From a virus, in IMG/VR virus record IMGVR_UViG_3300009149_003774, positions 1-20,407 of that record: a stretch of 20,407 bases of DNA; one strand, given 5' to 3'. The translations under genes were made by a program, and so were the position numbers. The notes beneath the pieces were generated by a model. That model saw only the letters and a program-made list of their open reading frames with translations. It had not been told where the DNA came from and did no database searches. Positions 5,386 through 17,615 of this stretch are shown piece after piece. Each line of letters opens with the position of its first letter. Within the stretch, counting starts at the first letter, position 1.

Positions 5386-5663
5386 AATTTGTGCCTAAAA
5401 TCATCATCGTTTCGGGATGGAGTTTCCCAACAATCATTTCTACGATCCCAATGTCGTTTGTCGTAAACATTGAAGTCAATTCCCCAAAATAGAAAATGTA
5501 AATACAATCCACCACCAGCATGATCACATTTTCTCGTGAAGCTCAAATCAAATTTGAAACCACAGTATGAATAACTGTATGGTTTATGCCACTGTATTTC
5601 AAAATTTTTATTTTCGCTTAAAACCAAGTTCAAATAACTAGAGTATATTTTTAATCGTTTCAT
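5382..5663 (-). CDS. Hypothetical phage protein (93 aa), aromatic-rich
   Basis: This protein is rich in aromatic residues and histidine, with a DHAGGGLYLHFLFWGIDFNVYD segment followed by KRHWDRRNDCWE. The 'G-D/D-H then strand then YDxRHW' layout is common in small phage orphans with a predicted beta-sandwich, but no function is known to me. It is translationally coupled on both sides: its start overlaps the stop of the PTH2-like gene, and its stop overlaps the next start. Confidence 0.68.
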   Translation of the reverse strand: MKRLKIYSSYLNLVLSENKNFEIQWHKPYSYSYCGFKFDLSFTRKCDHAGGGLYLHFLFWGIDFNVYDKRHWDRRNDCWETPSRNDDDFRHKL

Positions 5664-6172
5664 GGGTGTAGTTTTAAATGTCCAACTAATTTCTTGGTTG
5701 TTTCACTGTTTTTGTCAGCAAATAAATAAGCACATGTTACTTCGTTTCTGAAGCATACAAAGTCACCGCTTTCAAGTTCATGTGGATCTTCGGTGTGAAA
5801 ATCACGGTCTATCAAATCCTTAACTTCCAAATTTACAATATACGGATATGTTGGGTCGTGTAGATAATCAAACACAACTTGATTCTGTAGTTTAGCAGTG
5901 ACTATGTTAAGATCCACATTCTCAATTTCAACCAAATCACAACCCAATACTAATACAGTACCAAATCCTTGACAGGTTGTGTTTTTCCATTCAAGAGCAG
6001 CTTCAGTCACAGATTTACTTTCCGCCCATAAAGCTTCTTCTTGTTTTGTTCTATCGTCAATATCAGCGACAAAAGCATTACTAACATGACTAGCTTGTGC
6101 CATTGCTTTACCTGGATTCATTGAAGGTAAATCAGTTCTCATTAAAATGTATAGTACGTATTCAGTTTCCAT
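5660..6172 (-). CDS. PTH2-family (peptidyl-tRNA hydrolase II-like) protein
   Basis: The 170-residue protein opens with YVLYILMRTDLPSMNPGKAMAQASHVSNAF. This matches the PTH2 signature in which a hydrophobic strand and R-T-D-L are followed by G-K-x-x-A-Q-x-x-H. PTH2 enzymes release peptides from stalled peptidyl-tRNA. Phage copies are known but not well studied, so activity is inferred. The C-terminal part (ELESGDFVCFRN and HLKLHP) does not match the family in an obvious way. Its ATG comes 6 bases after a strong -10 box, making it a predicted leaderless message. It heads a four-gene overlapping operon. Confidence 0.75.
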   Translation of the reverse strand: METEYVLYILMRTDLPSMNPGKAMAQASHVSNAFVADIDDRTKQEEALWAESKSVTEAALEWKNTTCQGFGTVLVLGCDLVEIENVDLNIVTAKLQNQVVFDYLHDPTYPYIVNLEVKDLIDRDFHTEDPHELESGDFVCFRNEVTCAYLFADKNSETTKKLVGHLKLHP

Positions 6173-6395: not shown

Positions 6396-7349
6396 TTAAA
6401 ACCCTTCCACTTGAAATAATTCAGATATACTTTCGTTTGTGTGGGTTCGTTTAATTGCCCTACCAAGCAGATTACCCACGTTTAATTCTGTCATTTTCCC
6501 CACTCTGGAATTCTGTAGGTTTATGGTTTTGTTATGAGTGGTATTCGTGTAAATGAATTCATCTATCACATGGCCAGCGCTTTCAAATCGTTCTTGTGCC
6601 TTGGTTGTAAATACTCCGTGGGTAATGGCACATGTCACTGTACTAGCACCAGCTTCTTTACAAATATCAGCAGCAGATATCAACGTACCAGCACTTTCTG
6701 TCATATCGTCAACCAATAATACATTTTTGTCCTTAACATCACCACATACTTCACTACTTTCTACTTCCGTGTCTGATATACGTTTCTTGGCAATAAATGC
6801 AAAAGATACATCCAATGTTTCAGCATAAGCGTGAGCACGTTTAACTCCGCCCACATCTGGAGATACAACCACATTGATGTTGTTGGTTTTGTTAAGATAT
6901 TCTGTGATCACAGGTGTTGCATATAAATGATCTACGGGTATCTTGAAAAATCCTTGGGCTTGAGCACAATGAAAATCCATGCTGATGATTCTATTGGCAC
7001 CAGCAGCTTCTATCATATCTGCGACAAGTCTGCCAGAAATAGGCGTTCTACTTTTTGTTTTACGGTCTTGTCGTAAATATCCCATGTAAGGAATCACAGC
7101 GGTAATACGACTGGCAGATGCTCTTTTAGCAGCATCAATCATGATCAATAACTCCATTAGATTGTCATTGACAGGTGTATCCAGACTTTGGATAATGAAC
7201 GTATCTTGGCCTCGTATGTTCTCTTTATACTGACAATACCGTTCTCCAGACGGAAAAGCATGTAGATATACATTCCCAAATGGTTCATCTAAGAATTGGC
7301 AAATTTGTTTGGTTAGTTTTTTGTTAGAGCTACCGCTGAATATTTTCAT
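6396..7349 (-). CDS. prs: Ribose-phosphate pyrophosphokinase (PRPP synthetase)-like
   Basis: This 317-residue protein has full family length. Visible motifs are PYMGYLRQDRK (87-97, ATP-binding region), SMDFHCAQAQGFF (123-135), the flexible-loop region AKKRISDTEVE (187-197) and the PRPP loop VDDMTESAGT (213-222), where most enzymes have DDMIDTAGT. The standard reaction is ATP plus ribose-5-phosphate to PRPP, the substrate of the neighbouring NAMPT. An alternative is important: phage homologues called Adps attach pyrophosphate to ADP-ribose as the first step of the NARP1 NAD+ rebuilding pathway. Sequence alone cannot separate the two. The D-to-E and T-to-S changes in the loop are worth checking. 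The start overlaps the stop of the 46-residue membrane peptide upstream. Confidence 0.9.
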   Translation of the reverse strand: MKIFSGSSNKKLTKQICQFLDEPFGNVYLHAFPSGERYCQYKENIRGQDTFIIQSLDTPVNDNLMELLIMIDAAKRASASRITAVIPYMGYLRQDRKTKSRTPISGRLVADMIEAAGANRIISMDFHCAQAQGFFKIPVDHLYATPVITEYLNKTNNINVVVSPDVGGVKRAHAYAETLDVSFAFIAKKRISDTEVESSEVCGDVKDKNVLLVDDMTESAGTLISAADICKEAGASTVTCAITHGVFTTKAQERFESAGHVIDEFIYTNTTHNKTINLQNSRVGKMTELNVGNLLGRAIKRTHTNESISELFQVEGF

Positions 7350-7486
7350 TTTTTGATTTCTACTTGTTCAATGTTGTCTTTTCCAAGCCAATATTTGTCA
7401 ATCGTTGGTTTGATTCCATTGTTGGATGCTTCAAAAACAAAAACCAACAGCAAAATCGTCAGAATAAAAAGGATTAAATCTTTCAT
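7346..7486 (-). CDS. 46-residue single-pass membrane peptide upstream of PRPP synthetase
   Basis: This short frame is coupled on both sides: its ATG overlaps the stop of the 70-residue gene (TTATGA), and its TGA overlaps the PRPP synthetase ATG. It encodes MKDLILFILTILLLVFVFEA, a clear N-terminal membrane helix, followed by a charged tail ending DNIEQVEIKK. The helix has no lipobox cysteine or obvious cleavage site, so it is probably a membrane anchor with a cytoplasmic or periplasmic tail. Function is unknown. The tight coupling on both sides is the main evidence that it is real. Confidence 0.68.
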   Translation of the reverse strand: MKDLILFILTILLLVFVFEASNNGIKPTIDKYWLGKDNIEQVEIKK

Positions 7487-7695
7487 AATACATTCTCCAT
7501 ATATGTCATTTCCCCAATAGTTTGTTTAGAATCAACTTGATGTGTGATTATATACAAATGGGAAGGTTCTAATGTAAGTGAGGACTCTTGTTTCTCAATC
7601 ATAACTTTTGCTTTGTCAATTGCCATTTCCATCTTGGAAAAACAACCATGTTCGTTACCATCTAGGTCACTGTATAATATGTGTACTTCTTTCAT
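7483..7695 (-). CDS. Hypothetical phage protein (70 aa), first gene of the PRPP synthetase operon
   Basis: This small protein starts with VHILYSDLDGNEHGCFSKME and has a helical centre (AIDKAKVMIEKQE) and a strand-like LYIITHQV. No catalytic motif is seen. The ATG lies 7 bases after a -10 box, so the message is predicted to be leaderless. The stop overlaps the start of the membrane peptide, which in turn overlaps PRPP synthetase, so all three are likely made from one message. Confidence 0.68.
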   Translation of the reverse strand: MKEVHILYSDLDGNEHGCFSKMEMAIDKAKVMIEKQESSLTLEPSHLYIITHQVDSKQTIGEMTYMENVL

Positions 7696-7702
7696 GTTAT
7701 AT

Positions 7703-7731
7703 ACTTTAAATTAGTTTTGTTGAAATGTCAA
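7703..7731 (-). promoter_or_regulatory. Sigma-70-like promoter, leaderless type, for the PRPP synthetase operon
   Basis: TTGACA (7726-7731), a 17-base spacer and TAAAGT (7703-7708) on the minus strand, then 7 bases and ATG 7695. The -35 box comes directly after the T-tract of the NAMPT terminator. The block TTTTTCTTGACATTT is shared with the promoters at 11780 and 12225. Confidence 0.62.
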
Positions 7732-7732
7732 G

Positions 7733-7761
7733 AAAAAGGGGCGGTTAAATTCCACCGCCCC
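7733..7761 (-). terminator. Rho-independent terminator of the NAMPT gene
   Basis: On the minus strand a perfect 8-bp stem, GGGGCGGT with ACCGCCCC (7738-7745 and 7754-7761), encloses an 8-base loop and is followed by TTTTTC. It begins a few bases after the NAMPT stop codon. The GC-rich stem in very AT-rich surroundings makes this unambiguous. The T-tract runs straight into the next promoter. Confidence 0.93.
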
Positions 7762-7767
7762 ATTCAA

Positions 7768-9201
7768 TTAGATTTTAGCACGTTCTCTGACTTCGTCAAA
7801 GGTATGATTCACAAGGATTTCTCCATTTTCATAAACCGTAACCAAATGATTCACAGGTCCGTGAGCAGCATTTTTCAAGTCATCCAGACGGTATGTGGTA
7901 GCTTTACCATCATTCCCAATGTATAACCCGAGACGACCAGCTTTACTTTTCTTGGTTTGATCCAATGGATTCTTTTGGATATCAATCCACTCACCATTCC
8001 GTTTTTGAGCACTACATTTGAAAGCATGTCTCAATGTATCACGGTTTACCTTCTGGAGCAGCCCGCCGCCTTGACCGAAGATCTGCGTTCCGGTGCTGTA
8101 ACCAGCTTGTTTAAGAGCTTCAAGGATTCTTTCAATTCCTTTGGTATCAATTCCGTCACCCCAAATGACACCAACAGCAGGATGTAACTCTTTGTAACCC
8201 TTTGTGTTTAATGTCACACCATAGTCAGCTTCAAGTTGTTGATATGTCCACACGACCAACTCTTCAGGAGTTTCATGCGTTGGCGTGATACTGTCAGGAC
8301 GGATTACAAGCTTCGTTGGGATATCACCAGCGTTAGCATTACGATCAATGATCTGTTGCTTAAAGGTGCTTCCCATTTGTCTCACGAACTCGTAGTAGTC
8401 GTAACTGTCGGCGACTAAACTTACAATTCCAAGTGGGTTTTTATCAAGACAGTCTTGAACGATCTCCATTTCACCTTCTGGACCACCAGCAGTCATTACA
8501 CTGTGTTCAGTTGCAAATACACTATGACCCAATCCTTCAAATGGTGCGTCATAATACTCATTTGCATAATCCAATGCAACCATTGTATCAGTTCCCAAGA
8601 AATTTACCAAGTGAGCAGCACCACCTAAACCAGCACCCTCAAAGGTATTTACACCACGACTTCCAAAATCATGAAGCATAAATGGAAGAAGAAAATCAGC
8701 ATCTGCCGTTTCATCCAAATATCTTTTCAAGATTTTCTTTGTTTGGTAACTTTTGGTTGCCACTGTAATTGGATACCAAACGCGACTCAAGTAAGTCTCA
8801 AGGTAGTTGGTCAACCAAGCACATTTTTCGTCTGTATTTTCAACTGTCATCATGACGTTGTCAATCGGAACTACAGTTCCTTCTGGAACAGCTTTAATCC
8901 GAATTGGAAGCTTTCCACCCAACTCATTGGCAATGTATTCCCAACCTTCACGATTGAAAAAAGTATCATTTCCGAAGAAGTGAGCTTTAATTTTCAAAGC
9001 AGTTGTATCAATCAGGTCTTGTGTTACCACTACCCCCTCAAGCCGTTTAAGCAAAGGTTGTAATCCGAAGAAAACCGCCTCGTTGTATTCTGCACCTTTA
9101 CGTGCCTCAAAGTAGCTATAAATGACCTCTGTACCGGGTCTATAGACTAAATTATGTCCTACTTTGTAGGAATCGACATCCATTATTATATTATGTTTCA
9201 T
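7768..9201 (-). CDS. nadV: Nicotinamide phosphoribosyltransferase (NAMPT/NadV)
   Basis: The 477-residue protein has full family length and converts nicotinamide plus PRPP to NMN. Active-site motifs are all present: HDFGSRG (177-183, aromatic and arginine residues that hold nicotinamide and phosphate), D205 in LGTDT (the residue that selects nicotinamide in NAMPT), H233 in ATEHS (the phosphorylated histidine), RPDS (301-304), WGDGID (347-352) and GGGLLQK (378-384). An AAGGA ribosome binding site, a leader of about 40 bases, its own promoter and a strong terminator make it a single-gene unit. Together with PRPP synthetase and NMNAT it completes NAD+ salvage. In NARP1 phages a NAMPT-like enzyme (Namat) instead uses pyrophosphorylated ADP-ribose, so the natural substrate should be treated as open. 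Confidence 0.95.
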   Translation of the reverse strand: MKHNIIMDVDSYKVGHNLVYRPGTEVIYSYFEARKGAEYNEAVFFGLQPLLKRLEGVVVTQDLIDTTALKIKAHFFGNDTFFNREGWEYIANELGGKLPIRIKAVPEGTVVPIDNVMMTVENTDEKCAWLTNYLETYLSRVWYPITVATKSYQTKKILKRYLDETADADFLLPFMLHDFGSRGVNTFEGAGLGGAAHLVNFLGTDTMVALDYANEYYDAPFEGLGHSVFATEHSVMTAGGPEGEMEIVQDCLDKNPLGIVSLVADSYDYYEFVRQMGSTFKQQIIDRNANAGDIPTKLVIRPDSITPTHETPEELVVWTYQQLEADYGVTLNTKGYKELHPAVGVIWGDGIDTKGIERILEALKQAGYSTGTQIFGQGGGLLQKVNRDTLRHAFKCSAQKRNGEWIDIQKNPLDQTKKSKAGRLGLYIGNDGKATTYRLDDLKNAAHGPVNHLVTVYENGEILVNHTFDEVRERAKI

Positions 9202-9248
9202 TTTATTTTTTCCTTATCTTTATCAGGATTATTGTTTATTAGATTACC

Positions 9249-9277
9249 ATCCTATCATGTAAAATGGCAAAAGTCAA
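9249..9277 (-). promoter_or_regulatory. Sigma-70-like promoter for NAMPT
   Basis: TTGACT (9272-9277), a 17-base spacer and TAGGAT (9249-9254) on the minus strand. The -10 box is a poorer match than the others. It is followed by a leader of about 40 bases carrying AAGGA before ATG 9201. Confidence 0.58.
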
Positions 9278-9387
9278 GTTTTTTTAAACGGGTGATTAAA
9301 GTTTATTCTACCCCTCACCCATCCAGTGTTCTCAAATTCACGTAACATGTTGGGGTTTATACGTTTGTTGGTTTTTCCATCATTTGT
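9274..9387 (-). pseudogene. In-frame extension after the TAG of the 59-aa gene; endonuclease-tail-like fragment
   Basis: Reading on past the TAG at 9388-9390 in the same frame gives 37 further codons before TGA, including NDGKTNKRINPNML and NTGWVRGRINF. The NDGxxNKRI ... GWxxGR layout resembles a short tail seen on phage HNH and GIY-YIG homing endonucleases. This stretch may therefore be a decayed remnant of such a gene, an extension made by stop readthrough, or a micro-ORF starting at the internal ATG at 9348 (24 codons). No ribosome binding site precedes that ATG. The final TGA overlaps the NAMPT -35 box. Confidence 0.35.
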
Positions 9388-9567
9388 CTAATCCACAAAT
9401 TCAACTTCAAATTCAACTTTTCTCACAGACGTTGTTCTAATTCCATCTTCATTCGCCGTTGGAACCCAAAATCTAATGGGAGAAGTTGCGATCAATCCTT
9501 TTGATCCCACATATTCAAGGATTGCTTCTTCAAGTTCGTCTCCCGTCAATTCAACTGTTGTTTTCAT
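9388..9567 (-). CDS. 59-residue hypothetical protein coupled to the NadM/Nudix gene
   Basis: The ATG overlaps the TGA of the NadM-like/Nudix gene, so it is the third gene of the NAD operon. The protein begins TTVELTGDELEEAILEYVGSKG, a helix-forming acidic start, and ends in alternating charged and hydrophobic residues (VRKVEFEVEFVD), which suggests a beta-strand. I recognise no function. The stop is TAG, and the frame remains open afterwards, so a longer product is possible. Confidence 0.62.
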   Translation of the reverse strand: MKTTVELTGDELEEAILEYVGSKGLIATSPIRFWVPTANEDGIRTTSVRKVEFEVEFVD

Positions 9568-10607
9568 AGTATAAAATTCCCATTTTCATCGTAAGCATCA
9601 TTGAGTAATGTTTCAAATAATTCAGCATGTTCTGGAACTAAATCGTCAACATCAATCTCACTAAGTGGAATGTATCGTATCTCTTCAATATCATCTTGTG
9701 CTCTTGGTTCACCGTCAACATATTCAGCAACAAAGAATGTTGTGGTTATACTATCAACCTCACGGCGGTATCTGTGATCATCAATCATAAAACTTCCCAT
9801 ATATTGTAGATTTTGTATCTCAATATTAGCTTCTTCCATCACTTCACGCTTGGCAGCATCTTCAAACTTTTCATTGGTATCAACAAAACCGCCGATGAAT
9901 CTGAATTTGGTTTCATTTGGCTTTCTAGCAAGTAACAGATTTTCACCATCCAGAACAGCAACATCTACAGTTGGATAAACTTTGGGATATTGATTTTGTG
10001 TAGCCCAAATGACACCGTCGCGGAAATCCTTTGTTCCCTTTACGGAACTGCCAGCACGAGCATTCTGAGTCTCGTTGTTTTTGTAGATTTTCTGAGATAA
10101 CTCAACTGCTTTGTGTTTGCCGTTGTAATGTTTGCAGAATGTGTATTTTCCGCCATGAATACCGCTGATAGTTTTCAGCTTATGTTTCTTTGCAAATCTA
10201 TCTACTTGTTCGTCAATTGATTTACTCCATTCATCGTCGCTTCTATTGTCTTTCACATATCCAATATGCAAAGACTCAAAGTTACCGTAGTATTCGTCAA
10301 CCATCAACTTACGTGTCTCAAAATCCATTGGATTCTGTTTCGTTGCAACTACAGGACTCAACCCAAGTAAAATCAACACTTTATCATTTTCATTTAAAAG
10401 TCTGAGGATTTGTGTATTCATTTCAGAGCACATTTCGTCACTTTGAAATCTTCCGATTAATACTGCTAGTTTTTTCATTTTGTTTTCTTTGATCAAGCTT
10501 CTGCCTGTGTTTTTGGAAGCGACGACTATATTCAATTCGCCTTTTTTAATTCCGCCACCGATATCAAACATACGTTTGTCATCTTCCATTGTGTCATATG
10601 GTTCCAT
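9564..10607 (-). CDS. NadM-like nucleotidyltransferase / Nudix hydrolase fusion with degenerate first active site
   Basis: I chose ATG 10607 because GGAG lies 9 bases upstream, giving 347 residues. Residues 1-43 form an extra N-terminal piece containing GGGIKKGELNIVVASKNTG, which looks like the Walker A region of a RecA/DnaB ATPase but lacks the usual GKS/T. Residues 44 to about 200 resemble NadM (KKLAVLIGRFQ, then TKQNPMDFETRKLMVDEYY). However, the H-x-G-H nucleotidyltransferase motif expected after GRFQ is replaced by SDEMCSEM. The C-terminal domain has an intact Nudix box, GGFVDTNEKFEDAAK followed by REVMEEANI (about 239-261). NadM-Nudix proteins join NMN adenylylation with ADP-ribose hydrolysis. 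Here the Nudix activity looks intact and the transferase activity doubtful. The upstream gene supplies a complete NMNAT-type domain. Confidence 0.86.
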   Translation of the reverse strand: MEPYDTMEDDKRMFDIGGGIKKGELNIVVASKNTGRSLIKENKMKKLAVLIGRFQSDEMCSEMNTQILRLLNENDKVLILLGLSPVVATKQNPMDFETRKLMVDEYYGNFESLHIGYVKDNRSDDEWSKSIDEQVDRFAKKHKLKTISGIHGGKYTFCKHYNGKHKAVELSQKIYKNNETQNARAGSSVKGTKDFRDGVIWATQNQYPKVYPTVDVAVLDGENLLLARKPNETKFRFIGGFVDTNEKFEDAAKREVMEEANIEIQNLQYMGSFMIDDHRYRREVDSITTTFFVAEYVDGEPRAQDDIEEIRYIPLSEIDVDDLVPEHAELFETLLNDAYDENGNFIL

Positions 10608-10611
10608 TTTA

Positions 10612-11706
10612 TTATTCTCCATTTCTAATTTGTGTACTACTGATTGGATTGGTGTAATCCAACACCATTGCAATCATATCAATTGCCAATTCTTTGAATT
10701 GAAGAGGTGCGTCAGCCAATGCTTCATACTCTCCATTTTCAAACATCCCATCTCTAGGAACCACAATAAATTTGATTCCATGTGTATGCAACATCAACAA
10801 ATCTTCATATGGATAATCCCACACCAAACGATTCATTGTATCAGCACCAACAACAAATGTGGCACCTTCATAAAATTTGATTTTGTCAATGAATTTTGGA
10901 AGATTGCTGACAATTAAATTTTCATCAAATTGTTTTGCTCTATCGTTTAAATCTCGTGGTAAAACGTCTGGCTTTTCTACATTCTTAACAGACAATTCAA
11001 AATAAACTTTTTTGCCTGTTTGTTTTTCAACCAACCTCGCAATCTCAGCATGACCTTCGTGTTGTGGGTTGAAGCTGCCAGGAAAAATTATGTCATTCCG
11101 TGGGTCACATTCTCCGAGAAGTGCAATTGGTATGTTTCCGTATGCTTCACCATATTCTGTATCAACTTCATCTGCATAAGTTATAACGTCCTCAATCGGC
11201 TTTGTAAGCATATTGTCAAATACATCAGGCATTTCATAAGCATCAGCCATGAAACCCAAGATCAATCCAGATACAGCTTTCTCTTGTAATTTTCTATCAA
11301 CATTTGGTAATTTAATACCCAACGTTTTCAAAGTCTTTCCATTGAAGTAACTGATGAATAATTTGTGTTCTCGTCCTTCTCTTTCACCGTCTTTTTTCAA
11401 AGAACATGTAACACCAAACCCAATTGTTTGTTCAAGTCGTTTGTAGTCATTTACCACTTCACCTTTTCTAAAGGCAGCTAATGCTAACCGCTTTGCAGCA
11501 TTTTCATCACAATATTTGTCAATTTCATACCCAAGAGCTTTATTAAAAGCTTCCGTTGCGTATGGAACTTCAAATCCGAGAATAGTGGCACTACCACCAC
11601 CTTGTTCCAGAAAGTCACCGATAAAGCGGGTTCCTCCGCCAGTGACCAAAAGGTATGCCTTTTCAGGCTTGCCATTAATGGCATCTATAATTTTTTGCTT
11701 ATTCAT
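10612..11706 (-). CDS. CinA-like domain fused to an NMN adenylyltransferase-type domain
   Basis: I chose ATG 11706 (364 residues); the longer frame begins with TTG inside a leader hairpin. Residues 1 to about 185 resemble a CinA C-terminal (PncC-type) domain: LLVTGGG, FLEQGGGSATILGFEVPYATEAF, then FGVTCSL and KLFISYFNG. PncC enzymes deamidate NMN, but this version has the VTGGG start seen in catalytically uncertain relatives. Residues 206-364 form a nucleotidyltransferase domain with IIFPGSFNPQHEGHAEIARL (HxGH at 216-219) and the C-terminal ISSTQIR (355-361), the two hallmarks of NMNAT/NadD enzymes. This gene can thus supply the NMN-to-NAD+ step missing from the degenerate NadM domain next door. 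It lies at the head of the NAD operon, behind a strong promoter and a hairpin leader. Confidence 0.86.
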   Translation of the reverse strand: MNKQKIIDAINGKPEKAYLLVTGGGTRFIGDFLEQGGGSATILGFEVPYATEAFNKALGYEIDKYCDENAAKRLALAAFRKGEVVNDYKRLEQTIGFGVTCSLKKDGEREGREHKLFISYFNGKTLKTLGIKLPNVDRKLQEKAVSGLILGFMADAYEMPDVFDNMLTKPIEDVITYADEVDTEYGEAYGNIPIALLGECDPRNDIIFPGSFNPQHEGHAEIARLVEKQTGKKVYFELSVKNVEKPDVLPRDLNDRAKQFDENLIVSNLPKFIDKIKFYEGATFVVGADTMNRLVWDYPYEDLLMLHTHGIKFIVVPRDGMFENGEYEALADAPLQFKELAIDMIAMVLDYTNPISSTQIRNGE

Positions 11707-11779: not shown

Positions 11780-11808
11780 AATATACATTATACTGTTTAA
11801 AATGTCAA
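11780..11808 (-). promoter_or_regulatory. Consensus sigma-70 promoter for the NAD operon
   Basis: TTGACA (11803-11808), a 17-base spacer and TATATT (11780-11785) on the minus strand, giving a leader of about 66 bases. The TTTTTTCTTGACATTTT block and the AATAAAATAA upstream of it are shared with the promoter at 12225, suggesting copied promoter modules. Confidence 0.72.
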
Positions 11809-12282: not shown

Positions 12283-12445
12283 ATCCCGGAGGGATAAGTT
12301 CTAATCTACGTTGATCTATCCAGACCTCACGACTTCCTTGTTTTATCTTGATCCACTTGTCAGTTTCAATTATTTCACTTTTGGTGGCACACCCGCCCAA
12401 AAATAGAACGGTTGCAAGTAACAATGTTAATTTTATTTTATTCAT
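12266..12445 (-). CDS. Small predicted lipoprotein (59 aa)
   Basis: The protein opens MNKIKLTLLLATVLFLGGCA: a basic N-terminus, a hydrophobic helix and the lipobox LGGC with C19. This is a textbook signal for lipid attachment and export, leaving a mature peptide of 41 residues (TKSEIIETDKWIKIKQGSRE, ending PPGYTFRK). Its ATG overlaps the end of the 2H-phosphoesterase-like gene by 8 bases, so it is the last gene of the eight-gene operon. Phage lipoproteins of this size include outer-membrane spanin subunits and superinfection-exclusion proteins that block receptors. The mature part is not proline-rich as many o-spanins are, so exclusion is equally plausible. Confidence 0.78.
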   Translation of the reverse strand: MNKIKLTLLLATVLFLGGCATKSEIIETDKWIKIKQGSREVWIDQRRLELIPPGYTFRK

Positions 12446-12836
12446 TTAGATATCCTACTGTTAGGTGATATGGCCATTTAGGTTCAGGAGATAGACCAAG
12501 TTTCTCACGTATTTCCGATGCTTCTGGACAATCAACAACTAACCAAAAATAATTATCGTTATTTGTTAATGTTCCGTAGTTAAATTTAACTGTTTCGTCG
12601 GCACGATAACCCCAATTCTTTTTTACCTTCGTATACTTACCAGCAACTACTGTAATATGAGCACCATGAAGCGGCCACGTTATCTTATTTTGTTTGTGGA
12701 GCATCCAATTACACACACGGTTGTAGTAATACACAATGTCAAATGGACAGTCTATTACCACCCAATCGTTTTTATAACGAACTTTACCAGTGGCTGTATG
12801 TGGTGTTTTGTTTTTCACAACTGGAACATACATCAT
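12438..12836 (-). CDS. 2H-phosphoesterase-like protein
   Basis: This 132-residue protein carries two H-hydrophobic-T-hydrophobic motifs: HGAHITVVAG (H60, T62) and WPYHLTVGYL (H124, T126), 64 residues apart. Paired HxT motifs at such spacing define the 2H phosphoesterase superfamily (LigT, CPDase and the phage anti-CBASS enzyme Acb1), which act on 2'-5' or cyclic nucleotide phosphates. The rest is orphan sequence, including WVVIDCPFDIVYYYNRVC and YFWLVVDCPEASEIREKLG. A defence-evasion role like that of Acb1 is inference; RNA end processing is the alternative. It lies between a small membrane protein gene and a lipoprotein gene. The first two codons are both ATG, and I see no ribosome binding site. 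Confidence 0.7.
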   Translation of the reverse strand: MMYVPVVKNKTPHTATGKVRYKNDWVVIDCPFDIVYYYNRVCNWMLHKQNKITWPLHGAHITVVAGKYTKVKKNWGYRADETVKFNYGTLTNNDNYFWLVVDCPEASEIREKLGLSPEPKWPYHLTVGYLNE

Positions 12837-16694: not shown

Positions 16695-17615
16695 TTACTT
16701 TTTCCATACAAACCCATTATACGACGTTTCGTTTTTTACAGATTTCCATAATGCTGAATATTTAAGGTTTAGTTCACGTTCTATCTGTTTAATGGAATCC
16801 CACGATTTTACGAATTCACCATTTAACGTGAATTGGTGAATTTCTTGTCGCTTTACACCCGGCTTAGCATAAAAGACGAATCCATTTTTATTGTAATCAT
16901 CAGATTCACGCCAATATGAACCCAAAAACGAATCCCATTTATTTTTCTTAGCACGAATTCTAATTTTTCTAGCATAACACTCAAACTCACAATCCGATGA
17001 CGACAATTCCCTCGCCGCCGCTTTGACTCCGTGCCATTCACCAATCAAATTACCGTTTAAATCAAACCGCATGATAGGATTTCCCATCGCAATAGCTCCT
17101 GGATTATGAGTTTTTAACTTTTCAATGTGTTCTTTTGTGTGTTTATACTCAACCTCACGTAATTTACGTATGTCGCTTATCCGTTTTCTAGCGTCAGATG
17201 AATGGGTTTTTCCATACATTCCATTTTTTTCTCCTTTGAAATTTTCACTGCATTTCTGTCTGAATTCATCAGTTATTATTAAATTTCTAACACCATCTCC
17301 ACCATCAGTCATATTTGTCAGTATTCCCGTTTTCAGATCACGTCTTCCATATTCAGCAATCAACTGTATTTCTTTTTTGTATGCTGTTTCTTCATCGTTG
17401 GTGTAATATACAAACCTATATTCAAGAGAATATCCTTCTTTTATTATTTTTTTAATTGTATTTGTCTTGTGACGATTTGAGTCGGTATCAACATCATGTA
17501 TATGTGATAACCAACGTTTTCTCTTAATAGACCCCTTCCCCACGTAAAATGGTTGATTCTTTATAGGATTCCACAATTCATATACTACATATTTATATTT
17601 TTCATTTATCGTCAT
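16695..17615 (-). CDS. GIY-YIG homing endonuclease with NUMOD-type DNA-binding modules
   Basis: The 306-residue protein starts with a GIY-YIG nuclease domain (about 9-95). KYVVYELWNPIKNQPFYVGKG holds the GIY and YIG positions as VVY and YVG, followed by RWLSHIHD and the acidic EIQLIAEYG. Next is KNGMYGKTHSSDARKRIS, a NUMOD3 module (about 131-148). Two NUMOD1-like repeats follow, with IMRFDLNGNLIGEWHGVKAA and HQFTLNGEFVKSWDSIKQIE; the last ends SYNGFVWKK. This modular order is typical of free-standing phage homing endonucleases that copy themselves into related genomes. It lies alone between the DHFR operon and the plus-strand cluster, at the strand switch, a plausible insertion point. There is no clear promoter or ribosome binding site. 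Confidence 0.9.
   Translation of the reverse strand: MTINEKYKYVVYELWNPIKNQPFYVGKGSIKRKRWLSHIHDVDTDSNRHKTNTIKKIIKEGYSLEYRFVYYTNDEETAYKKEIQLIAEYGRRDLKTGILTNMTDGGDGVRNLIITDEFRQKCSENFKGEKNGMYGKTHSSDARKRISDIRKLREVEYKHTKEHIEKLKTHNPGAIAMGNPIMRFDLNGNLIGEWHGVKAAARELSSSDCEFECYARKIRIRAKKNKWDSFLGSYWRESDDYNKNGFVFYAKPGVKRQEIHQFTLNGEFVKSWDSIKQIERELNLKYSALWKSVKNETSYNGFVWKK

Follow-up and report, generated by a model that had tools for sequence, protein, structure and literature searches.

A probable phage NAD+-rebuilding cassette with a CinA-fused enzyme as its presumed NMN adenylyltransferase

The 20,407-base viral record IMGVR_UViG_3300009149_003774 (the window, meaning the whole stretch of DNA analysed here) carries a minus-strand set of genes related to the synthesis of NAD+ (Table 1). 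In the order of transcription, these encode a fusion of a CinA-like domain with a nicotinamide mononucleotide (NMN) adenylyltransferase (NMNAT) domain, a fusion of a NadM-like domain with a Nudix domain, a 59-amino-acid (aa) open reading frame (ORF), the nicotinamide phosphoribosyltransferase NAMPT, a 70-aa ORF, and the ribose-phosphate pyrophosphokinase Prs. A preliminary description of this DNA had placed the four large enzyme genes at these positions, and their family matches proved to be far beyond chance. The window is wholly contained, in reversed orientation, in a separate 62,683-base IMG/VR contig at 99.946% identity. Because this second contig (the 62.7-kb sister contig) agrees at 99.95%, an assembly artefact is judged unlikely. 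The sister contig also encodes other phage genes and an ORF that, from its sequence, appears to be part of a terminase. When the DNA of the region was compared with 50,697 phage records, no close isolate came up, only short matches of about 65-68% inside the Prs gene. No tRNA or Rfam element was found in the window.

Two pathways by which phages rebuild NAD+ have to be considered for these genes. NARP2 consists of NAMPT and an NMNAT, the former using phosphoribosyl pyrophosphate (PRPP), and NARP1 consists of the related enzymes Adps and Namat, whose two steps lead to NAD+ through ADP-ribose pyrophosphate and nicotinamide. The window NAMPT matches PHROG 448 (3e-146) and, as its best solved structure, an entry at E = 4e-113; the Prs matches Pfam Pribosyltran_N (2.5e-51) and NCBIfam NF002320 (376 bits against a cut-off of 297). 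The two genes share a strand with about 420 bp between them, an arrangement close to that of NARP1-type loci, and they might be read as Adps and Namat. Six Adps/Namat-type loci from phage records served as controls. A 2026 paper defines the selectivity clamp of Namat as GSx-x-x-TRD, positions 3 and 7 being aromatic (PMC12774641). It reads GSYTYQYxTRD or nearly so in the Felixounavirus, Crifsvirus, Hena1 and PAK_P1 controls, whereas the corresponding region of the window NAMPT reads GGLLQKVNRD and lacks the clamp motif. In the tree, the six Namats and 19 phage NAMPTs, including that of the window, split at 100/100, with the window protein as sister to that of the viral contig L044, its nearest related cassette. 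Similarly, the Prs proteins of the window and L044 fall with those of E. coli and a Microcystis phage, apart from the six Adps-type proteins (100/99), and the window Prs has a canonical N-terminus and length. Moreover, separate NMNAT and Nudix genes would be superfluous in a NARP1 pathway. NARP1 is therefore rejected by the clamp motif and both trees, and we regard it as extremely improbable here, although the folds are related, and both the two-step NARP1 and the three to four steps envisaged for the window could use the same NADase products.

By sequence, then, the window NAMPT is of the PRPP type and its Prs is canonical. Such a module is expected to form NMN out of PRPP and therefore to need an NMNAT. 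The preliminary description had seen parts for either or both routes; the NARP2 part of that proposal holds, as NAMPT and NMNAT are both present, but the NARP1 part falls, since both proteins are placed with canonical or housekeeping-type enzymes. These comparisons support a NARP2-type pathway by the PRPP route.

The working NMNAT of the cassette is presumed to be the CinA-fused enzyme. Its C-terminal half matches CTP_transf_like (PF01467) at 6e-9, and both NMNAT motifs, HxGH (HEGH) and ISSTQIR, are intact, as had been noted before. A structure predicted by AlphaFold2 with 15 aligned sequences (mean pLDDT, the predicted local distance difference score, of 76) retrieved CinA structures and the Plasmodium nicotinic acid mononucleotide (NaMN) adenylyltransferase 5llt in Foldseek, with a probability of 1.00 each. 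The fusion has no PHROG match.

The CinA-like half shares the fold of PncC/CinA NMN deamidases, but it is fused to an NMNAT and differs from them at the catalytic site. In the hhalign alignment to E. coli PncC, a tyrosine of the window protein lies at the PncC tyrosine, a G-x-S at its G-S-S, and a phenylalanine at its catalytic lysine. In Thermus CinA, Gly-284, Ser-286 and Tyr-296 contact the phosphate (PMC4246079), and these phosphate-binding G-x-S and Tyr positions are kept in the fusion. The lysine of the YxNxxK motif is absolutely conserved in active NMN deamidases, where it is the proposed general base (PMC4246079, PMC3855486). If the CinA-like half were itself an active deamidase, the fusion would make NaMN and then nicotinic acid adenine dinucleotide, feeding the host NadE. 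The CinA fold, the retained phosphate-binding serine and tyrosine, and the PF02464 membership of bacterial relatives (above the cut-off in fusion relatives from SAR86A and an archaeal metagenome-assembled genome) would all fit such an activity. However, the lysine is absent in all 32 aligned members of the fusion family, and the ESCTGG serine of PncC is unrecognisable in the CinA-like half. Because the lysine is missing, we hold an active deamidase to be decidedly unlikely. More probably, this half hydrolyses nothing and serves to bind NMN or to assist dimerisation.

The fusion family is widespread in marine bacteria. Relatives are encoded in 340 genome stretches, the best 80 of which are mostly from SAR86, Planctomycetota and other Gammaproteobacteria. 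The bacterial proteins have the same two domains, the same motifs and the same missing lysine as the window protein, but are chromosomal; no experimental description of them was found in the literature searched. In the fusion tree, the phage rows form two groups apart from most bacterial rows. The window protein sits on a long branch joined to a second long branch, so the tree points to no particular donor for it. INPHARED contains two matches, LR745208 over the whole length and LR756511 over the NMNAT half only. One phage CinA/NMNAT protein is already among public structure models, named only as cytidyltransferase-like.

In viral contigs, scans with single proteins returned the same contig only, and alignment queries were needed. 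These gave 34 loci with fusion matches, of which two (L071 and L072) resemble unrelated short nucleotidyltransferases, leaving 32 with redundant contigs included. Besides the window, about 20 phage contigs carry the fusion; NAMPT is usually its neighbour, and a Nudix gene is often present. A NAMPT lies within 6 kb on the same strand in 18 of the 32 loci, and 16 of the 25 viral records with fusion matches contain a NAMPT-family match somewhere in the record. Stand-alone Nudix genes, confirmed as real Nudix domains, are common next to the NAMPT/fusion pair. The near-identical contigs L044 and L045 have the whole order of the window, namely CinA, NMNAT, NadM/Nudix, NAMPT, Prs and a Pth2-like gene. 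In these two contigs (L044:6001-7030 and its counterpart in L045), the CinA-like and NMNAT parts are two overlapping ORFs, so the fusion is either split there or joined by a frameshift. At another locus, the gene directly upstream of NAMPT and the CinA/NMNAT fusion (L055:3629-4438) encodes a Nudix protein that also has an NrtR winged-helix domain, a possible phage-borne regulator of NAD+ genes.

The window also encodes the NadM-like/Nudix protein. The start giving 347 aa is the best supported, as it has a GGAG Shine-Dalgarno-like site, which overlaps the stop of the CinA-like/NMNAT gene. The leader (GGGIKKGELN) is predicted to be disordered, occurs once in the 62.7-kb contig and is absent in L044. 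The predicted structure matches the Francisella NadM/Nudix enzyme best (3e-17), with 2qjt, 2r5w and 2qjo as the top matches, which indicates that the NadM domain is kept as a fold. The protein thus resembles these bifunctional enzymes (Francisella 2qjt/2r5w, and 2qjo) in domain order, fold and Nudix box, but it has lost the HxGH motif of the adenylyltransferase, which is replaced by CSEM, a point missed in the preliminary description. Among 61 distinct phage NadM/Nudix proteins, 50 have both HxGH histidines, nine have one, and two have none. The latter are the proteins of the window (CSEM) and L044 (NPIL), the only two that adjoin a CinA/NMNAT fusion. In both, the Nudix box is preserved except that a G has become N.

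It might be argued that the NadM half is still an NMNAT with an unusual active site and that the phage has two such enzymes. The predicted fold is kept and the identity to relatives is 32-44%, so the domain is under some constraint. Yet only the two lineages that encode another NMNAT alongside have lost both histidines, and when the contig was scanned the domain did not match PF01467, even at E = 1. We consider continued NMNAT activity unlikely. The distribution of the two enzyme types is also informative. A NadM domain occurs in three of 22 viral records with the fusion (the contig of the window and the L044/L045 pair), and 13 others have a Nudix match only. Conversely, none of 20 records with a motif-bearing NadM/Nudix protein has a full fusion, the one weak partial match being a 150-aa frame. 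As judged from their motifs, the two NMNAT types, motif-bearing NadM and the CinA-fused enzyme, are shown to be mutually exclusive.

Taken together, we think it probable that the cassette rebuilds NAD+ by the PRPP route, with the CinA-fused NMNAT in place of NadM and the Nudix domain kept for reuse of ADP-ribose. On the simplest reading, a phage cassette of the kind seen in L214, where NadM/Nudix, NAMPT and Prs are contiguous, would have acquired a CinA-type NMNAT; decay of the NadM active site would then have followed, with the Nudix domain retained. Prs would make PRPP, NAMPT would join it with nicotinamide to give NMN, and the CinA-fused enzyme would adenylate NMN to NAD+. The NadM half, with its ATP-binding motif gone, would no longer carry out this last step, which the CinA-fused enzyme would have taken over. 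The Nudix half is most likely an ADP-ribose pyrophosphatase releasing AMP and ribose-5-phosphate, which Prs would return to PRPP. Should its substrate be ADP-ribose, as it is for the solved NadM/Nudix enzymes, Nudix and Prs together would yield PRPP, and the nicotinamide and ADP-ribose left by a defence NADase could both be rebuilt into NAD+. We infer this flow of substrates, as well as the Nudix substrate, the role of the CinA-like half and any protection against NAD-depleting defence. Synthesis of NAD+ by the cassette appears likely from the enzymes encoded, and an anti-defence role is plausible in view of NARP2. A more far-reaching version, which we offer tentatively, is that the cassette represents a distinct pathway, in which NADase products pass through free ribose-5-phosphate, the CinA-like half captures NMN and shields it from the host deamidase, and the NadM half is retained as a pseudo-enzyme for regulation or docking.

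In phages, NAD+ genes also occur as simple aids to metabolism, and this is one of several points that weigh against the NAD+-rebuilding, counter-defence interpretation. The cassette could be a general metabolic aid, supplying more NAD+ and PRPP to the nucleotide synthesis of the phage, and no anti-defence system. In line with this, the window and sister contig hold GMP reductase, DHFR, ribonucleotide-reductase-like and cobalamin adenosyltransferase genes, and PRPP serves nucleotide salvage too. On the other hand, the repeated occurrence of Nudix, NAMPT and NMNAT as a set agrees with a reuse of NADase products, phage NAD+ synthesis defeats NAD-depleting defence (PMC12774641 for NARP1), and NARP2 is listed as counter-defence (PMC12028318). 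A purely metabolic function is possible but, in our view, doubtful. There are further adverse points. The full fusion of LR745208 (L003) occurs in a 485-kb record that, over its whole length, has no NAMPT-family match; the fusion is thus not always partnered with NAMPT, and there it may act on host-made NMN. The two NadM proteins without HxGH share 49% identity and are thus related, so the loss may be one event. The comparison of the ISATxxR motif in the window NadM depends on the alignment, as a two-residue shift would keep an arginine. The window Nudix box has N for its second G (EEANI). Finally, NAMPT is followed by a strong terminator-like hairpin and the 70-aa ORF has a promoter-like consensus match ahead of it. 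Prs may therefore form a transcription unit of its own, possibly expressed apart from NAMPT.

In a survey of 21,191 viral proteomes, the enzymes given for NAD+ salvage by phages were NadV together with NadM or NadR (PMC9503650), and nothing on a CinA/NMNAT pairing in phages was found in the literature searched. The CinA-fused NMNAT is a third class of phage NMN adenylyltransferase beside NadM and NadR, and screens for NARP2 keyed on the latter two would miss it. Compared with NARP2 (e.g., of KVP40-type Vibrio phages), the window is alike in its NAMPT with a PRPP-type clamp region, in having an NMNAT in the same cassette and in its Nudix domain, but differs in the class of its NMNAT, in its degenerate NadM domain and in the inclusion of Prs. 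What goes beyond minimal NARP2 would be the CinA-like/NMNAT as the working NMNAT, the NadM without HxGH and, conceivably, the return of ADP-ribose to PRPP by Nudix and Prs. The decayed NadM beside the fusion suggests that one enzyme has replaced another, and that what selection still maintains in this protein is the Nudix domain. The recycling of ADP-ribose into PRPP becomes an idea that is directly testable with four proteins.

Table 1. Features of the cassette and its surroundings in the window.
Feature	Position	Strand	Basis or remark
Sigma-70-like promoter ahead of fusion gene	11780..11808	-	TTGACA-17-TATATT; consensus match only
CinA-like/NMNAT fusion, 364 aa	10612..11706	-	start ATG 11706, stop at 10612; HEGH and ISSTQIR intact
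CinA-like (PncC-fold) domain without deamidase lysine	11226..11706	-	hhalign to E. coli PncC, probability 95.5, E 1.6e-8; Foldseek 2a9s, 5kvk, 4ct8
NMNAT domain, presumed working NMN adenylyltransferase	10615..11100	-	PF01467; Foldseek 5llt, probability 1.00
NadM-like/Nudix fusion, 347 aa	9564..10607	-	alternative start 10622; disordered leader of about 41 aa
CSEM replacing HxGH of NadM adenylyltransferase domain	10419..10430	-	both histidines lost
Nudix domain, catalytic glutamates intact (GGFVDTNEKFEDAAKREVMEEANI)	9567..9974	-	PF00293, 1.2e-18
59-aa ORF	9388..9567	-	between NadM/Nudix and NAMPT; module membership unsupported, with no detectable relative in other cassettes
NAMPT, nicotinamide phosphoribosyltransferase, 477 aa, PRPP-type	7768..9201	-	PHROG 448, structure match, clamp region, tree
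Terminator-like hairpin after NAMPT	7738..7761	-	8 pairs, 7 of them G-C, then T run
Sigma-70-like promoter ahead of 70-aa ORF and Prs	7703..7731	-	TTGACA-17-TAAAGT; consensus match only
70-aa ORF, function unassigned	7483..7695	-	open reading frame list
Prs, canonical ribose-phosphate pyrophosphokinase, 317 aa	6396..7349	-	Pfam, NCBIfam, tree
Pth2-like protein	5660..6172	-	after Prs in the window and in L044; 42% identity to L044

The preliminary description had also listed small coupled genes with the enzymes. The 59-, 70- and 93-aa ORFs, however, have no detectable relatives in L044, and on this evidence they lie outside the module. PADLOC gave only weak generic matches, including one of a GIY-YIG/NUMOD homing-endonuclease-like protein (16695-17615) to the model PD-T4-3. 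About 0.7 kb upstream of the fusion gene, positions 12438-12836 encode a 2H phosphoesterase (2H-SAK, 9.5e-9) with two HxT motifs, a candidate nucleotide-cleaving enzyme. The GMP reductase-like protein (1150-2412) matches its family in two stretches split by an insertion of about 75 residues. In the 62.7-kb sister contig (L009), a large reductase-like gene (L009:7973-11194) with a below-cut-off match to the insertion domain of B12-dependent ribonucleotide reductase adjoins the cobalamin adenosyltransferase gene, and consecutive PrkA, DUF444 (YeaH) and SpoVR genes (L009:11287-16348) form a cassette linked to stress and sporulation in bacteria, here found in a virus.

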